34,616 nt of DNA, taken from positions 1-34,616 of the forward strand of contig JAIXKR010000077.1 of NCBI GenBank assembly GCA_026932235.1, read 5' to 3'. The stretch is from Burkholderiales bacterium. GTDB lineage: Bacteria; Pseudomonadota; Gammaproteobacteria; Burkholderiales; Burkholderiaceae_C. The notes beneath the pieces were generated by a model. That model saw only the letters and a list, made by a program, of their open reading frames with translations, was not told where the DNA came from and did no database searches. This document shows positions 1 to 5,600 of this stretch, in pieces; the first letter of the stretch is position 1, and every line of letters starts with the position of its first letter. The position numbers were made by a program, and so were the translations under genes.

Positions 1-1218
1 ATAGTCGGCGTTGATGCTGACGTAGTCGTGCGAGAGGTCGCAGGTCCAGACCTCGCTCGCCGCGGCGCCGCGGTTCAGCAGCACGCGCACGGTGATCTCG
101 CGGCCTTTCATGACGCGCTGGCCGTCGGCTTCCTCGTACGCGGGATGGCGGCCGCCTTGCGTCGCCACGTGCACGTCGTCGAGGTAGAGGTCGATGAGGC
201 CCTGGTCGAGGTCGTCGATGCCGGCGTAGCCGACGGCGGCCAGGATGCGGCCGAGGTTGGGGTCGCTGGCGAAGAAGGCGGTCTTCACCAGCGGCGAGTG
301 CGCGATCGCGTAGGCGACCCGGCGGCACTCGGCCTCGCTGCGCCCGCCTTCGACACGCACGGTGATGAACTTGGTTGCGCCCTCGCCGTCGCGCACGATG
401 GCCTGCGCGAGTTCCCGCGAGACCTCGATCACCGCCTCGGCCAGCGTGCGGCCGGCGGGCGAATCGAGGCTCGTGATCGGCGCGTGGCCGGCGCGGTTCG
501 TCGCCACGAGGACGAAGGAGTCGTTGGTCGAGGTGTCGCCGTCGATGGTGATGCGGTTGAAGCTCGCGTCCGCCGCCTGAGCGACCAGCGTCTGCAGCAG
601 CGCGGCGTCGACGACGGCGTCGGTGGCGAGGAAGCCGAGCATGGTCGCCATGTTCGGGCGGATCATGCCGGCGCCCTTGGCGATGCCGGTGAGGGTGACC
701 TCGCAGCCGTCGATGCGGATCCGGCGTGACGCCGCCTTGGGCACGGTGTCGGTGGTCATGATGCCTTCGGCGGCCTGCGCCCAGTGGCCGGGCGCGAGAT
801 CGGCCACGGCCGCCGGCAAGCCGGCTTCGATGCGATCGACCGGCAGCGTCTCCATGATGACGCCGGTGGAGAACGGCAGCACCGACTGCGCCGGCACGCC
901 GAGCTGGGCGGCGACGGCGTCGCAGGTACGCCGCGCACGCGCCAGGCCGTCGGCCCCGGTGCCGGCGTTGGCGTTGCCGGTGTTGACGATGAGCGCGCGC
1001 ATCGCGCCGCCGGCTGCAAGATGCTCCCGGCAGACCTGCACCGGCGCGGCGCAGAAGCGGTTCTGCGTGAACACGCCGGCCACCGCCGCGCCTTCGTCGA
1101 GCGCGAACAGCACGAGGTCGCGCCGCCCGGGCTTGCGGATGCCGGCCATCGCGGTGCCGATGCGCAGGCCGGGGACGGCAGGAAGAACGGGTTCTGCAGG
1201 GCTCGAACTGGAAGACAT
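1..1218 (-). CDS. argJ: Bifunctional glutamate N-acetyltransferase / N-acetylglutamate synthase ArgJ (3' end cut by window)
   Basis: ArgJ moves the acetyl group from N-acetylornithine to glutamate in the cyclic arginine pathway and, in bifunctional forms, also makes N-acetylglutamate from acetyl-CoA; it is cytoplasmic. The reading frame gives 406 residues and leaves the window at SINADY, so only the last few residues and the stop are missing. The self-cleavage site [14 protein letters not shown] is present, with the break expected between Ala191 and Thr192, Thr192 becoming the nucleophile. An upstream [10 protein letters not shown] segment near residue 152 is also typical. The start at 1218 was chosen because family similarity begins soon after it. 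In many Burkholderiales argJ directly follows secA on the same strand; here 4.7 kb of other genes separate them. Confidence 0.97.
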
Positions 1219-1286
1219 GGTCCGGGTTCCGAAGTGGGCGCGGACGGCAACGATAAGCGAGCCGCCGCGCTGCCGCGCTTCGGCGG

Positions 1287-1754
1287 TCAGCGCGACGGCT
1301 CGGGCGGCGGGCGCTGCACGTGGCGCACCGGGCTCACGCCGCAAACGCCTTCGAGCGCGCGCAGCGCGTTCAGCTGCCGCGCCGGAACTTCGACCGCGAT
1401 CGCCTGGCGCACGAGGCGAACGCGCCCGATCTCGACCGCGCCCAGCGGCCGCATGCGCTGCATCAGCTCGTCCTGCCGCTGCGTCACCTGCGACGCGTCC
1501 GGGCGCGCCTGCGGCGTCGACGCGCCGAGCGCAGGCGGCAGCGGGCAGAGATCGACCCACACCTGCACCGGCGCGTCGGGCAATGCCGGCAAGGCGTGCA
1601 GGGGCGTGCAGGCGCCCGATGGCTTCACCCCCTCGCGGTCCACACCGGGTGCAGGCGTGGCCACCAGGAGCAAGCCCAAAGCCGTCACGCCGGCCGCACT
1701 GCCTCGCAGTGCGGTGCGACTGCGCAGCCTCGGCTTGATCCGGCACAGCGTCAT
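1287..1754 (-). CDS. Small secreted protein resembling a stand-alone subtilase propeptide (inhibitor I9-like)
   Basis: This 155-residue protein begins with an Arg-rich n-region and a hydrophobic stretch (about residues 19-33, [13 protein letters not shown]), so it is probably exported. I do not recognise it as a named family. Its second half matches the prodomain of the S8 protease at 2633-5818. PVQVWVDL parallels PVDVWVTL, and residues 100-148 align without gaps to protease residues 131-179 with 19 identities in 49 (shared AIAV, QL, GV, PV and H). The helical spacer in the protease prodomain (about residues 80-130) is mostly absent, and so is any catalytic domain. S8 propeptides act as folding chaperones and tight inhibitors, and free-standing I9 inhibitors are known. 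Function as inhibitor or chaperone is inferred. The gene lies 68 bases upstream of argJ on the same strand and diverges from the PEP-CTERM gene. There is no strong ribosome binding site at the chosen ATG. Confidence 0.72.
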
Positions 1755-1897
1755 CGTTCGTCAATGAAGCCGTTGCGGGCCGCATCCACAAGCGAGGTTT
1801 CCCCGTGTCGGCGGCCCTTACAAGGGGTCGCCCACTGGCGCGAGGCCGTGCCCGACCGGCGAGCCAAGTTCGTGTCCCATTTCACGTTTCATGACAA

Positions 1898-1913
1898 CGG
1901 CACGGATTTTGCA
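1898..1913 (+). promoter_or_regulatory. Sigma-54 (RpoN) -24/-12 promoter of the PEP-CTERM gene
   Basis: The 16 bases CGGCACGGATTTTGCA match the RpoN consensus TGGCACG-N4-TTGCA at every defined position but the first. GG lies at 1899-1900 and GC at 1911-1912, with the required 10 bases between them. Transcription should start near 1924, giving a leader of about 30 bases that contains the GAGGAGA ribosome binding site (1944-1950) before the ATG at 1955. PEP-CTERM genes in betaproteobacteria are known to be controlled by RpoN with the PrsK/PrsR sensor-regulator pair. Neither regulator is in this window. Confidence 0.8.
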
Positions 1914-1954
1914 TGCAACGTGCGAATGCGTTCCCAACAGGAAGAGGAGACTCC

Positions 1955-2521
1955 ATGAAATCCCTATGGCCAGCCTTCGTGGCGGCGTCGAGCCTGCTTT
2001 GCGCGACGGCGCAGGCGGCCCCCGTGATTGGATTCACAGGAGACTTTGCCCCGGCCAACTGGACGTCCGCGGTCGGCACCAACGGAGCAACACCCAGTGC
2101 GGATGCGTCGTTCCTGAGCATCACGAGCCCGAGACCCGATGGTTTCGACTCGAGTTGGACCGACTTCAGCATCGTCGTCGGCGCAGCGGCCAAGATCAGC
2201 TTCGATTGGTCCTACGTCACGTCGGATCTGGACAACGACCCCTTCTACGATCCCTTCGGCATCCTGTCGGTGAACGGCTTCACGCCGCTGAGCGACGACG
2301 ACGGCGACGCGAGCCAGAGCGGGTCGTACTCGGTCGTCGTCGACGCTGGCGAGGTCTTCGGCTTCCGTGCCTGGGCCATCGACGGCGACTTCGGCACCGC
2401 CACCACACGCGTGGGCAACTTCCGCGTCGACTTCATCCCCGAGCCGACCACGCTGCTGCTCCTGGCCGCGGCGCTGGCTGCAGCCTCGGCCGCCAAGCGG
2501 CGCGGGACAAGCCGCGTTTGA
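1955..2521 (+). CDS. PEP-CTERM sorting domain protein (exosortase substrate)
   Basis: This 188-residue exported protein has a signal peptide (residues 1-21, ending TAQAA), a beta-rich Asp/Ser/Gly-rich body and a classic PEP-CTERM tail. The tail is Pro-Glu-Pro at 162-164, a hydrophobic segment at about 166-180 and the basic cluster KRR at 181-183. Exosortase (EpsH/XrtA type) cuts such tails after export, and the proteins are typically part of the extracellular matrix or floc polymer. No exosortase gene lies in the window. I do not recognise the central domain; it has acidic runs (DLDNDPFYD, SDDDGD) that could bind calcium. The start at 1955 is favoured over the in-frame ATG at 1913 because it has a strong GAGGAGA site, and 1913 falls inside the sigma-54 promoter. 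A terminator follows the gene. Confidence 0.9.
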   Translation: MKSLWPAFVAASSLLCATAQAAPVIGFTGDFAPANWTSAVGTNGATPSADASFLSITSPRPDGFDSSWTDFSIVVGAAAKISFDWSYVTSDLDNDPFYDPFGILSVNGFTPLSDDDGDASQSGSYSVVVDAGEVFGFRAWAIDGDFGTATTRVGNFRVDFIPEPTTLLLLAAALAAASAAKRRGTSRV

Positions 2522-2580
2522 GTCCCAGCCCAGAGACAAGCATGGAGCCCGTGCCTTCCGGCCGGGTTTGACGATTCGGC

Positions 2581-2605
2581 GGCCGGCGCAACAGCCCGGC
2601 CTTTT
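2581..2605 (+). terminator. Rho-independent terminator after the PEP-CTERM gene
   Basis: A perfect 6-base-pair stem GGCCGG (2581-2586) / CCGGCC (2596-2601) with a 9-base loop is followed directly by TTTT. It lies 60 bases after the PEP-CTERM stop and about 20 bases before the ribosome binding site of the S8 protease gene. It therefore separates the two genes or acts as a leaky attenuator between them. Confidence 0.6.
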
Positions 2606-2632
2606 CGGCTTTCTCGTCAGGATGGAGAAGTC

Positions 2633-5600
2633 ATGAAAAGAATCTCCCGGTCGGGTCTGGCGCTTGCCGGTGCGGCCTTTCTGGTCGCCTGCGGCGGCGC
2701 CAACGAAACGATCAGCACGCAGAGCACAGCCACCCAAGAACGCGCGCTTTCGGCGCGCACCCCACCCACGCTGGACGCGGTCGTCCATGCGGCCAAGATC
2801 GACCGCCGGCTTCGTCACACCAGCGGCCCGGTCGATGTCTGGGTCACGCTGGACCAGAACTCGCTCGCGCGCACGCGCGCGGTCCTGGCCGAGCGGATGC
2901 CGGTTCATCGCATGCGCGCCCAGTCGGCCGACGGCAGCGTGCGCCGCGAAGCGGCCGCCGTGGCCGCCGCGATGTCGGCCCAGCGCGCCGCGGTGCTCGC
3001 GCAACAGGCGGCGGTGAGCAGCCGTCTTTCGGCCATGGGGGCCAGGGTTCTCGGCCAGGTGACGGTGGCGCACAACGCGATCGCCGTCACCATCGACGCC
3101 GGCCAGCTGCGCACCATCGGCACCCTGCCCGGCGTCGCACGCGTGCGCCCGGTCATCCATTACGAGAAGCATTTGAGCGACACCGTCCCCTACATCGGCG
3201 CCCTGGCCGTGCAGAGCGGCGGCGTCGATGGCAGTGGCGTGAAGGTCGCAGTCCTCGACTCCGGCATCGACTACACGCACCGCAACCTGGGCGGCTCGGG
3301 CACGGCCGCCGACTACGCCGCGGCCAGCGCCGACCCGACGACGATCCCGAACGGCCTCTTCCCCACCGCCAAGGTGGTCGGCGGCTACGACTTCGTCGGC
3401 TCGACCTGGTCCCCCGGCGCCGGCACCCGCACGGAAGATGCCAACCCCATCGACGACGGACCCGAGGGTGGTCACGGCACGCACGTGGCCGACATCATCG
3501 CCGGCAAGAGTCTGGACGGCAGCCACAAGGGCGTCGCGCCGGGCGCGCAACTGCTGGCGATCAAGGTCTGCTCCAGCGTCTCGACCAGCTGCAACGGCGT
3601 GGCGCTGATGAAGGGCATGGATTACGCCCTCGATCCCGACGGCGACGGCGACCTGAGCGACGCGGCCGACGTCATCAACCTCTCGCTGGGCTCGAGCTAC
3701 GGCCAGATCGAGGACGACCTGAGCGCGGCCACGGCCAATGCCGTGGCCGCCGGCGTCGTCGTCGTCGCCTCCGCGGGCAACTCCGCCGACCGGCCCTACA
3801 TCACAGCCTCGCCGGCCGCGACTCCGGGCGTCATCAGCGTCGCTCAGACGCAGGTGCCCAGCGCCTCGGCGGTGCCATTGAAAGTGAACGCGCCGGCGGC
3901 GATCGCCGGGCTCTACGGCAACACGGCCCTGCTCGACTGGGCGCCGCTGGGCGCAGGCGTGAGCGGCGACGTGGTCTACGTCGGCCGCGGATGCATCGGC
4001 GATTCCTTCTTGGCCAACCCTGCAGGAAAGATCGCGCTCATCGACCGCGGAGTCTGCGCCGTCAGCGAGAAGGTCGACAAGGCCGCCAACGCCGGCGCCA
4101 TCGGCACCCTGATCGCCTTGATCGCCCCGGGTGACGCGGTCAGCTTCAGCCTCGGCGGCGGCTCGAACTTCGTGCCTTCGATGGTCATCCAGCAATCTCT
4201 GGGCGTTGCCATTCGAGGGCAACTGGCCGGAGGCAGCACGGTCAACGTCAGCCTTTCGCCGGCCAACAGCGTCGCCCTGGTCGGCAGCATGGCCGGGACC
4301 TCCTCGCGCGGACCGAACGTGAGCTTTGGCCACATCAAGCCCGAGATCGGAGCACCCGGCGCGTCGATGTCCGCCGAGTACGGCACCGGCAACGGTGAGA
4401 CCGCGTTCGGCGGCACGTCAGGCGCTGCACCCATGGTGTCCGGCGCCGCGGCGCTGCTGCTGAGCGCCTTCCCCGGCCGCACGCCGATGGAGATCAAGGC
4501 GATGCTGATGAACAGCGCCAACACGGCGGTGTACACCAACCCGGCCGTGCTGCCAGGCAGCCTGGCGCCGATCTCGCGCATCGGCGCCGGCGAGACGCGC
4601 GTCGATCGCGCCCTGGCCCTGCCTGCGATCGCCTGGGACGACAGCACGCTGTCGGCAGCGCTTTCCTACGGTGCGCTGGAAGTCGACAAGCAGACGACGG
4701 TGCAGCGCACGCTGACGCTGAAGAACTTCGGCGGCAGCGCGCTCAGCTTCAGCGTCGGCAAGAGCTTCCGCTACGCCTCCGATGCCGCCAGCGGCGCAGT
4801 GACGATCCAGGCGCCTGGCAGCGTCAGCGTGCCCGCGTACGGGACGGCCACGCTGACGGTGTCGCTGCTCATCAACCCGGCCAAGCTGCCCGACTGGACG
4901 CTCAATGGCGGCGCGCTCGGCGGCGATGGCGCGGCGCTGAACGGCCCCGAGTACGACGGCTACGTCACGCTGACCGCGGGCACGACGCAGTTGAGCATCC
5001 CCTGGCATGTGCTGCCGCGCAAGGCGGCGCTGCTCAACGGCACCCTGCCCACCGGCGCGCGCGCGCGCAGCGTGATCACGCTGAAGAACAGCGGCACCGG
5101 TGTCGGCGAGTGGGACAGCTTCTCGCTCATCGGCACGAGCGGCCAGTACCCGCCGGGCGCCATCCCCGGGATGGGGGACAACTACGCCTTGATCGACCTG
5201 AACGCGGTCGGCGTGCGCTTCCTGCCGGCGGCGGAGTATGGCTACAACATGCTCGAGTTCGCGATCAGCACCCACGGTCGGCGCGCCCACCCCAACTATC
5301 CCGCCGAGTTCGACATCTACATCGACACCGATGGCGATGGCAGCGCCGACTACGTCGTCTACAACGCCGAGTCGGGCGGTTTCGGGGCTTCGGGGCAGAA
5401 CCGGGTCTACCTCTACTCGATGGCCGACGGTACGTCGAGCTCGGTCTTCTACACCGACGCCGACCTGAATTCGGGCAACCTGATCTTCACGGTGCTGCTC
5501 AACACCGATGGCTTGCCTCCGAGCTATCCCAGCCTGAAGGTCGCCGCAGGCACGACGCTGGGTATCGACTTGTACGGTTTCGACAACTACTTCACCGGCG

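Follow-up and report, generated by a model that had tools for sequence, protein, structure and literature searches.

SUB1-ProM is encoded by a gene adjoining subtilase genes, adopts the subtilase propeptide fold and inhibits SUB1 (PMC6993865). In the available sections of that paper, its tail is said to copy the cleavage-site tail incompletely, and an acidic helix-capping pair is described for the docking of both the SUB1 prodomain and SUB1-ProM. The stand-alone I9-type inhibitors named in the same sections are those of Pleurotus ostreatus and yeast, an Arabidopsis inhibitor, and TgMIC5 (PMC6993865). An earlier note on the DNA analysed here had stated that free I9 proteins also occur in some bacteria; this was not borne out, the examples named there being fungal, plant, and apicomplexan. 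Among the papers listed by searches of the open PMC literature (at most 25 per search), none dealt with a stand-alone inhibitor of the subtilase propeptide kind from bacteria, which is weak evidence of absence given that subscription papers lie mostly outside it.

Bacterial pairs of a protease and a small partner are known from other settings. In Streptococcus pyogenes, the SpeB gene is adjacent to that of Spi, an inhibitor analogous to the propeptide; as far as the available parts of the two sources go, SpeB is a C10 cysteine protease and Spi presumably acts in the cytoplasm (PMC2873492, PMC3462683). The same excerpts describe Bacteroides Bfp and Btp as predicted lipoprotein proteases with propeptides, whose small, predicted-exported inhibitors Bfi and Bti are encoded upstream or downstream (PMC3462683, PMC2873492). 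In Aeromonas sobria, orf2 lies just downstream of the gene for the serine protease ASP. According to the available text, ASP needs ORF2 to mature, and ORF2, whose C-terminal Gln-Pro-Lys lies near the active site, inhibits ASP (PMC5638518). A title within the reference list of that paper calls ASP propeptide-deficient (PMC5638518).

The locus considered here lies in a stretch of 34,616 nucleotides from a Burkholderiales bacterium, analysed as a whole and called the window below (Table 1). Its gene order is argJ (minus strand, Pfam E=7e-144), the gene of a small propeptide-like protein (minus), a PEP-CTERM gene (plus), an S8 protease gene (plus), and secA (minus). The protease has a lipobox, read by eye as LVAC with Cys-20, that closes its signal sequence, and it contains an fn3_5-like stretch that scores below the cut-off. 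Like SUB1-ProM, the small protein is a separate polypeptide with a propeptide fold (predicted here) whose gene sits beside a subtilase gene. Unlike the described eukaryotic kind, it is bacterial, neighbours an S8 protease of lipoprotein type with a prodomain of its own, belongs to a set with mostly Pro-rich tails, and is a putative rather than a described inhibitor. As in SpeB-Spi, the partner has its own gene next to that of the protease, and this adjacency is conserved across genomes (7/7 cases found through the small protein; at the window and three other loci a PEP-CTERM gene intervenes), but the protease is a subtilase rather than a C10 cysteine protease and the small protein looks exported, whereas Spi is presumed to act in the cytoplasm. 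With the Bacteroides pairs it has in common a lipoprotein-type protease with a propeptide and a small, putatively exported partner; those proteases, however, are of the C10 family, and Bfi and Bti are presented as staphostatin-like rather than propeptide-like. ASP-ORF2 likewise joins a serine protease and an adjacent small protein. It is set apart, by its description, in that the protease here has its own prodomain (12/12 loci) and the small gene lies ahead of the protease gene or diverges from it.

Table 1. Coordinates of the features discussed, numbered from the first nucleotide of the window
Feature	Position	Strand	Basis or remark
Stand-alone propeptide-like protein gene	1287..1754	minus	ORF, ATG start, 155 aa
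Signal-like N-terminal region of the small protein, about residues 1-38	1641..1754	minus	Hydrophobic ALGLLLVA, read by eye
Propeptide-like core domain, residues 62-148	1311..1571	minus	AlphaFold2 model and Foldseek
Pro-rich C-terminal tail, residues 142-155, replacing the cleavage region of the prodomain	1290..1331	minus	Alignment
Secreted PEP-CTERM protein gene between the pair	1955..2521	plus	Pfam PEP-CTERM E=7e-5
S8 protease, 1061 aa	2633..5818	plus	Peptidase_S8 E=5e-46; PA domain E=4e-10, inside the S8 domain
Prodomain of the protease	2690..3175	plus	Predicted autoprocessing after invariant Leu-181, KHL/SDTVPYIG (slash, cut)

Homology and predicted fold of the small protein

By sequence and profile comparison, the small protein is homologous to the subtilase prodomain. 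Residues 99-148 align without gaps to residues 130-179 of the neighbouring protease, with 19/50 identities and 28/50 positives (BLASTP, E=3e-7 as a single comparison), and the ungapped match reported in the earlier note is thereby confirmed. A search of the window's own genome at E up to 0.001, with 35/35 candidates scored, returned the prodomain as the sole other match (E=8.8e-5). Profile-profile comparison (hhalign) of 11 stand-alone proteins with 20 prodomains from proteases of this type gave a probability of 99.5 and E=2.2e-22 over 93 columns. The prodomain alignment (A5) holds 20 of 22 lipobox prodomains, and a contig-edge fragment (L086) stands outside the 11-sequence alignment, whose conserved core is 27-54% identical to the window's protein. 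The preceding strand, proposed earlier as a shared PVxVWVxL motif, is recognized by eye as APVQVWVDL in the small protein and GPVDVWVTL in the protease.

The fold is predicted to be of the propeptide type, in line with the earlier note's reading, from the order of core elements and the Foldseek ranking. In the AlphaFold2 model, in which 57 residues reach a pLDDT of 90 or more, the core comprises strand 62-69, helix 87-104, strands 107-112 and 118-124, helix 125-132, and strand 137-142, in the same order as in subtilase propeptides. Foldseek against the PDB placed Tk-subtilisin propeptide entries at ranks 1-9 (best E 0.0086, probability 1.00), with prodomains of PCSK9, subtilisin E, and furin-bound entries further down. 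None of these PDB matches fell below E=0.001, superpositions had an rmsd of about 6 in many rows, and the unrelated Mesd/Boca and MORF were also listed. The modelled prodomain of the protease arranges its core elements in the order seen in the small protein, with two extra helices ahead of its first helix, one ahead of its first strand, and a much longer helix after that strand (33 residues against 18 in the small protein). The helical spacer is therefore missing from the small protein, as is any catalytic domain, both as the earlier note had claimed. Pro-subtilisins were also the best Foldseek matches of the prodomain but weaker (best E 0.096), with adenylyl cyclases among other folds.

Family profiles do not recover this relationship. 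Pfam and NCBIfam searches with the small protein gave no useful match, and the Pfam Inhibitor_I9 profile (PF05922), a match to which had been anticipated, hit 0/11 stand-alone proteins at E up to 1; it weakly matched 11/20 related prodomains (best E 0.0022). In a PDB sequence search, the small protein drew only weak matches, topped by an unrelated one at E~0.5, with Tk-subtilisin propeptides following at E~1. When positions were set by alignment to the Tk-subtilisin propeptide, the acidic helix-capping pair that would follow the last strand, a docking feature outside the I9 family definition, occurred in 0/11 stand-alone proteins and 0/20 aligned prodomains. Hence, any docking would have to differ in detail from that of pairs with this feature.

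The small protein looks exported, given a signal-like N terminus read by eye, a feature seen in its homologues as well and in keeping with the export first suggested for it. An RR pair falls within the first 35 residues of 9/11 stand-alone proteins, compared with 3/22 lipobox regions of the proteases, and hints at twin-arginine export; the window's protein has no RR in this segment. Cysteines stand at residues 4, 49, 70, and 138 of the window's protein. Those at 70 and 138 recur in its closest relative (L083, 4660-5070), which has a third just ahead of the first strand, and are missing from the remaining nine aligned members. A disulfide specific to this lineage is possible.

Occurrence and pairing with a lipoprotein-type subtilase

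Searches proceeded from the small protein and from the protease. An initial scan of genome contigs with the small protein found no relative, and a plasmid search at E up to 0.01 found no match. A sequence search of 200 family genomes (up to 19 candidates scored in each) gave matches in at least 16, mostly protease prodomains. With a profile built from five stand-alone proteins, at least 27 of 399 family genomes matched, and at least seven, the window's included, carry a stand-alone copy (best 10 candidates each). Neither an order-wide search of 399 genomes (best 10 candidates each) nor a phylum-wide search of 299 (best 14) found a stand-alone copy beyond those of the window's genome and genome G091. 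Since only the best candidates per genome were scored, the stand-alone counts are lower bounds and the absences are weakened accordingly. Several matches were kept outside the counts: a weak partial one in the phylum-wide search (G829, 204-residue frame, E=2.8e-4); weak ones in G108 (C5), G153, and G026, 117-residue frames with stops read through, which disappeared in the profile search; and frames of 430 and 538 residues (G375, G322) in the profile search.

Of 128 related loci met in a scan anchored on the protease, the best 80 were kept; separate small ORFs were found at 10 of these, one being the contig-edge fragment. Five of the 10 belong to genomes already in the profile search, so that five loci are new, including the fragment (L086) and Povalibacter uvarum (L122). 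The 10, the window and G091 add up to 12 loci. Three more small ORFs with E 0.036-0.35 were treated as noise. The members comprise Rubrivivax pictus, Rivibacter subsaxonicus, Methylibium sp. NZG, a Piscinibacter sp., several Burkholderiales MAGs, and P. uvarum, a gammaproteobacterium whose pair suggests transfer between classes. In the family of Povalibacter, a stand-alone copy occurs in at least one of 150 genomes (best 28 candidates each), that of Povalibacter; in a further 21 genomes, every match falls in a frame at least 533 residues long. Two loci, L026 and L084, come from one genome. In a Rubrivivax MAG (G1069), pieces of the small gene lie at contig edges, on C80 (L086, 2-445) and C67 (8-277), and are possibly one gene split by assembly.

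Linkage to the protease is consistent. In the searches anchored on the small protein, 7/7 stand-alone copies (at least seven of 399 genomes) adjoin a prodomain-bearing S8 protease, and no copy was found away from one among the best 10-28 candidates scored per genome. The co-occurrence across genomes proposed as a check in the earlier note is thus upheld. Having been met via the protease, the five added loci lend linkage no independent support. For protease-anchored loci, the prodomain is also partly present by construction, its motif being one of two scan patterns; this does not apply to the genomes of the profile search. A lipobox is recognized, both by pattern and by eye, in 22 of 81 parsed proteases (pattern lipoboxes at L108 and L161 were dropped by eye, and L117 has no parsable protease). 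All 12 partnered proteases are among these 22, and 12/12 carry both the lipobox and a prodomain of their own. In the remaining 59, the available flank, short in some cases, contains no matching small ORF below E=0.03. Ten of the 22 lipobox proteases have no partner in the assembly, the protease itself being the sole match among the best 150 candidates, and the partner therefore seems dispensable.

Gene arrangement takes two forms. At 8/12 loci, the protease gene shares its strand with the small gene, which precedes it by about 75-175 bp (starts by eye). At the other four (window, L083, L084, and L086), the two genes are divergent with a PEP-CTERM homologue between them, and one shared transcript is impossible there. 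The PEP-CTERM homologues that fill this gap in L083, L084, and L086 are 42-68% identical by tblastn; with E up to 1e-3 as the limit, none turned up elsewhere in the 102 loci searched. A scan of window positions 1200-2700 for promoters and terminators found none. Flanking genes were scanned at 10/12 loci (all but L024 and L086): argJ and secA border the window's pair and that of L083, an SPFH gene lies on one side in L140 and L151, and the remaining flanks differ (recG/lysR, TonB receptor, phosphoesterase/polA, methyltransferase/sigma-54 activator, FAA hydrolase, and Tim44-like). On the protease tree, the partnered state requires seven changes, two of them forced by well-supported branches. This pattern fits repeated loss, transfer, or both.

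Origin, selection and the altered tail

The stand-alone proteins appear to form a lineage of their own. In a tree with 36 prodomains, the 11 proteins fall on one side of a branch with support 100/99; with 61 shared core columns and 22 prodomains, support is 88/90, which is under the strict level. Over the last ~75 residues, mean identity is 34.1% to the prodomain of the own neighbour (n=11), 34.5% to other prodomains (n=231), and 41.4% among the stand-alone proteins (n=55). This grouping, with the equal identities, makes recent duplication of the neighbour's prodomain unlikely, and the suggestion that the small gene was born from this protease finds no support. A single old duplication of a prodomain is possible on the same comparisons. 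Correlation of tree distances with the protease was apparent at first (Mantel r=0.42, p=0.005, n=11) and vanished once near-copies were removed (r=-0.17, p=0.79, n=9), so co-divergence is given no weight.

The small gene is under purifying selection. The dN/dS ratio is below 1 in 4/4 pairs (0.36/0.66, 0.09/0.33, 0.57/1.23, and 0.49/1.37), and homologues keep the frame open in 10 other loci, the 11th being cut at a contig edge. Conservation and dN/dS rule out a spurious ORF in GC-rich DNA; codon-position GC offers no clean argument for a gene, GC1 and GC3 being similar. A split or frameshifted protease is also ruled out, 12/12 partnered proteases having their own prodomain and the small gene lying on the opposite strand in 4/12 loci.

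The tails differ from those of the prodomains. We take the subtilisin junction to be HEY/AQSVPYG, with AQSVPY as the mature N terminus, and aligning KHL/SDTVPYIG with it is what places autoprocessing after Leu-181. The predicted P1 Leu is present in 69/69 parsed prodomains and 0/11 stand-alone tails, the other 12 of 81 prodomains being unparsed by the cleavage-site pattern. Proline occurs at P2, P1, or P1' in 9/11 stand-alone tails (exceptions L084 and L122) against 0/69 prodomains; these sequences are mutually related, and a Fisher value inflates the contrast. Proteases in general cut poorly next to proline, so a Pro-rich tail would be expected to resist them.

Proposed role and competing explanations

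We think it rather probable that the small protein, once exported, resists cleavage and inhibits the lipoprotein subtilase next door in trans, during the interval after autoprocessing and before the protease reaches its site of action. It would be a stand-alone mimic of the subtilase propeptide that works in trans on the lipoprotein S8 protease, docking on the catalytic domain in the manner of the prodomain. With a Pro-rich tail devoid of the P1 Leu, it would hardly be cut, and the uncut protein would keep the autoprocessed protease inactive in the periplasm until the place of action is reached. In its favour are the homology, the predicted fold, purifying selection, the linkage and the altered tail, with SUB1-ProM and SpeB-Spi as precedents. 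That the stand-alone proteins are no closer to the prodomain of their own neighbour counts against this reading, and the three S8 domains elsewhere in the genome could be the target. The missing helix-capping pair, the loss of the Mantel correlation once near-copies are removed, the ten lipobox proteases with no partner in the assembly and the poor Foldseek superpositions weigh against it too.

The small protein may instead be a foldase that acts in trans, helping the protease to fold or stay stable in the periplasm with inhibition as a by-product, as ORF2 does for Aeromonas ASP. The predicted fold is that of an intramolecular chaperone and the gene adjoins the protease, and in the available text of PMC5638518 ORF2 is both required for ASP maturation and inhibitory to ASP. 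We regard this as unlikely, given that 12/12 partnered proteases, unlike ASP, carry their own prodomain and that 10/22 related lipobox proteases manage without a partner. Because the protease retains its own prodomain for folding, a brake is more likely than a required foldase.

A different target appears still less probable. Here the small protein would inhibit another subtilase, in its own cell or outside in a competitor, and adjacency would reflect shared regulation. The signal-like N terminus and the lack of any closer resemblance to the neighbour's prodomain accord with this idea, as do the three further S8 domains in the genome (G000 C116, C29, and C142), which are possible alternative targets. 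It is opposed by the 7/7 cases anchored on the small protein that adjoin this very protease type, and by the finding of the pair in differing genomic surroundings. A functionless relic of an old gene duplication would agree with the patchy distribution (no stand-alone copy seen in 392/399 family genomes, best 10 candidates each) but is very improbable in view of dN/dS below 1 in 4/4 pairs, intact frames, and a core conserved at 27-54% identity in 11 sequences.

Beyond inhibition of the neighbouring subtilase, a wider proposal is put forward only tentatively. The stand-alone proteins may constitute a bacterial family of subtilase propeptide inhibitors of one origin, kept and moved as a two-gene module with the lipoprotein S8 protease. 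Its members would be exported, mostly with a twin-arginine-like N terminus and perhaps already folded, and their proline-blocked tail would make them a durable periplasmic brake on the autoprocessed enzyme.

The stand-alone subtilase propeptide-like inhibitors described in the available parts of the cited sources are eukaryotic, and the bacterial pair of protease and propeptide analogue, SpeB-Spi, involves a cysteine protease. From a conserved bacterial S8 pair one would learn how a Gram-negative cell could keep an envelope-bound subtilase in check once the enzyme has lost its prodomain. Such a pair would offer a natural comparison between a cleavable prodomain and a less cleavable relative on the same enzyme, and the small protein itself would be a small and possibly selective protein inhibitor.
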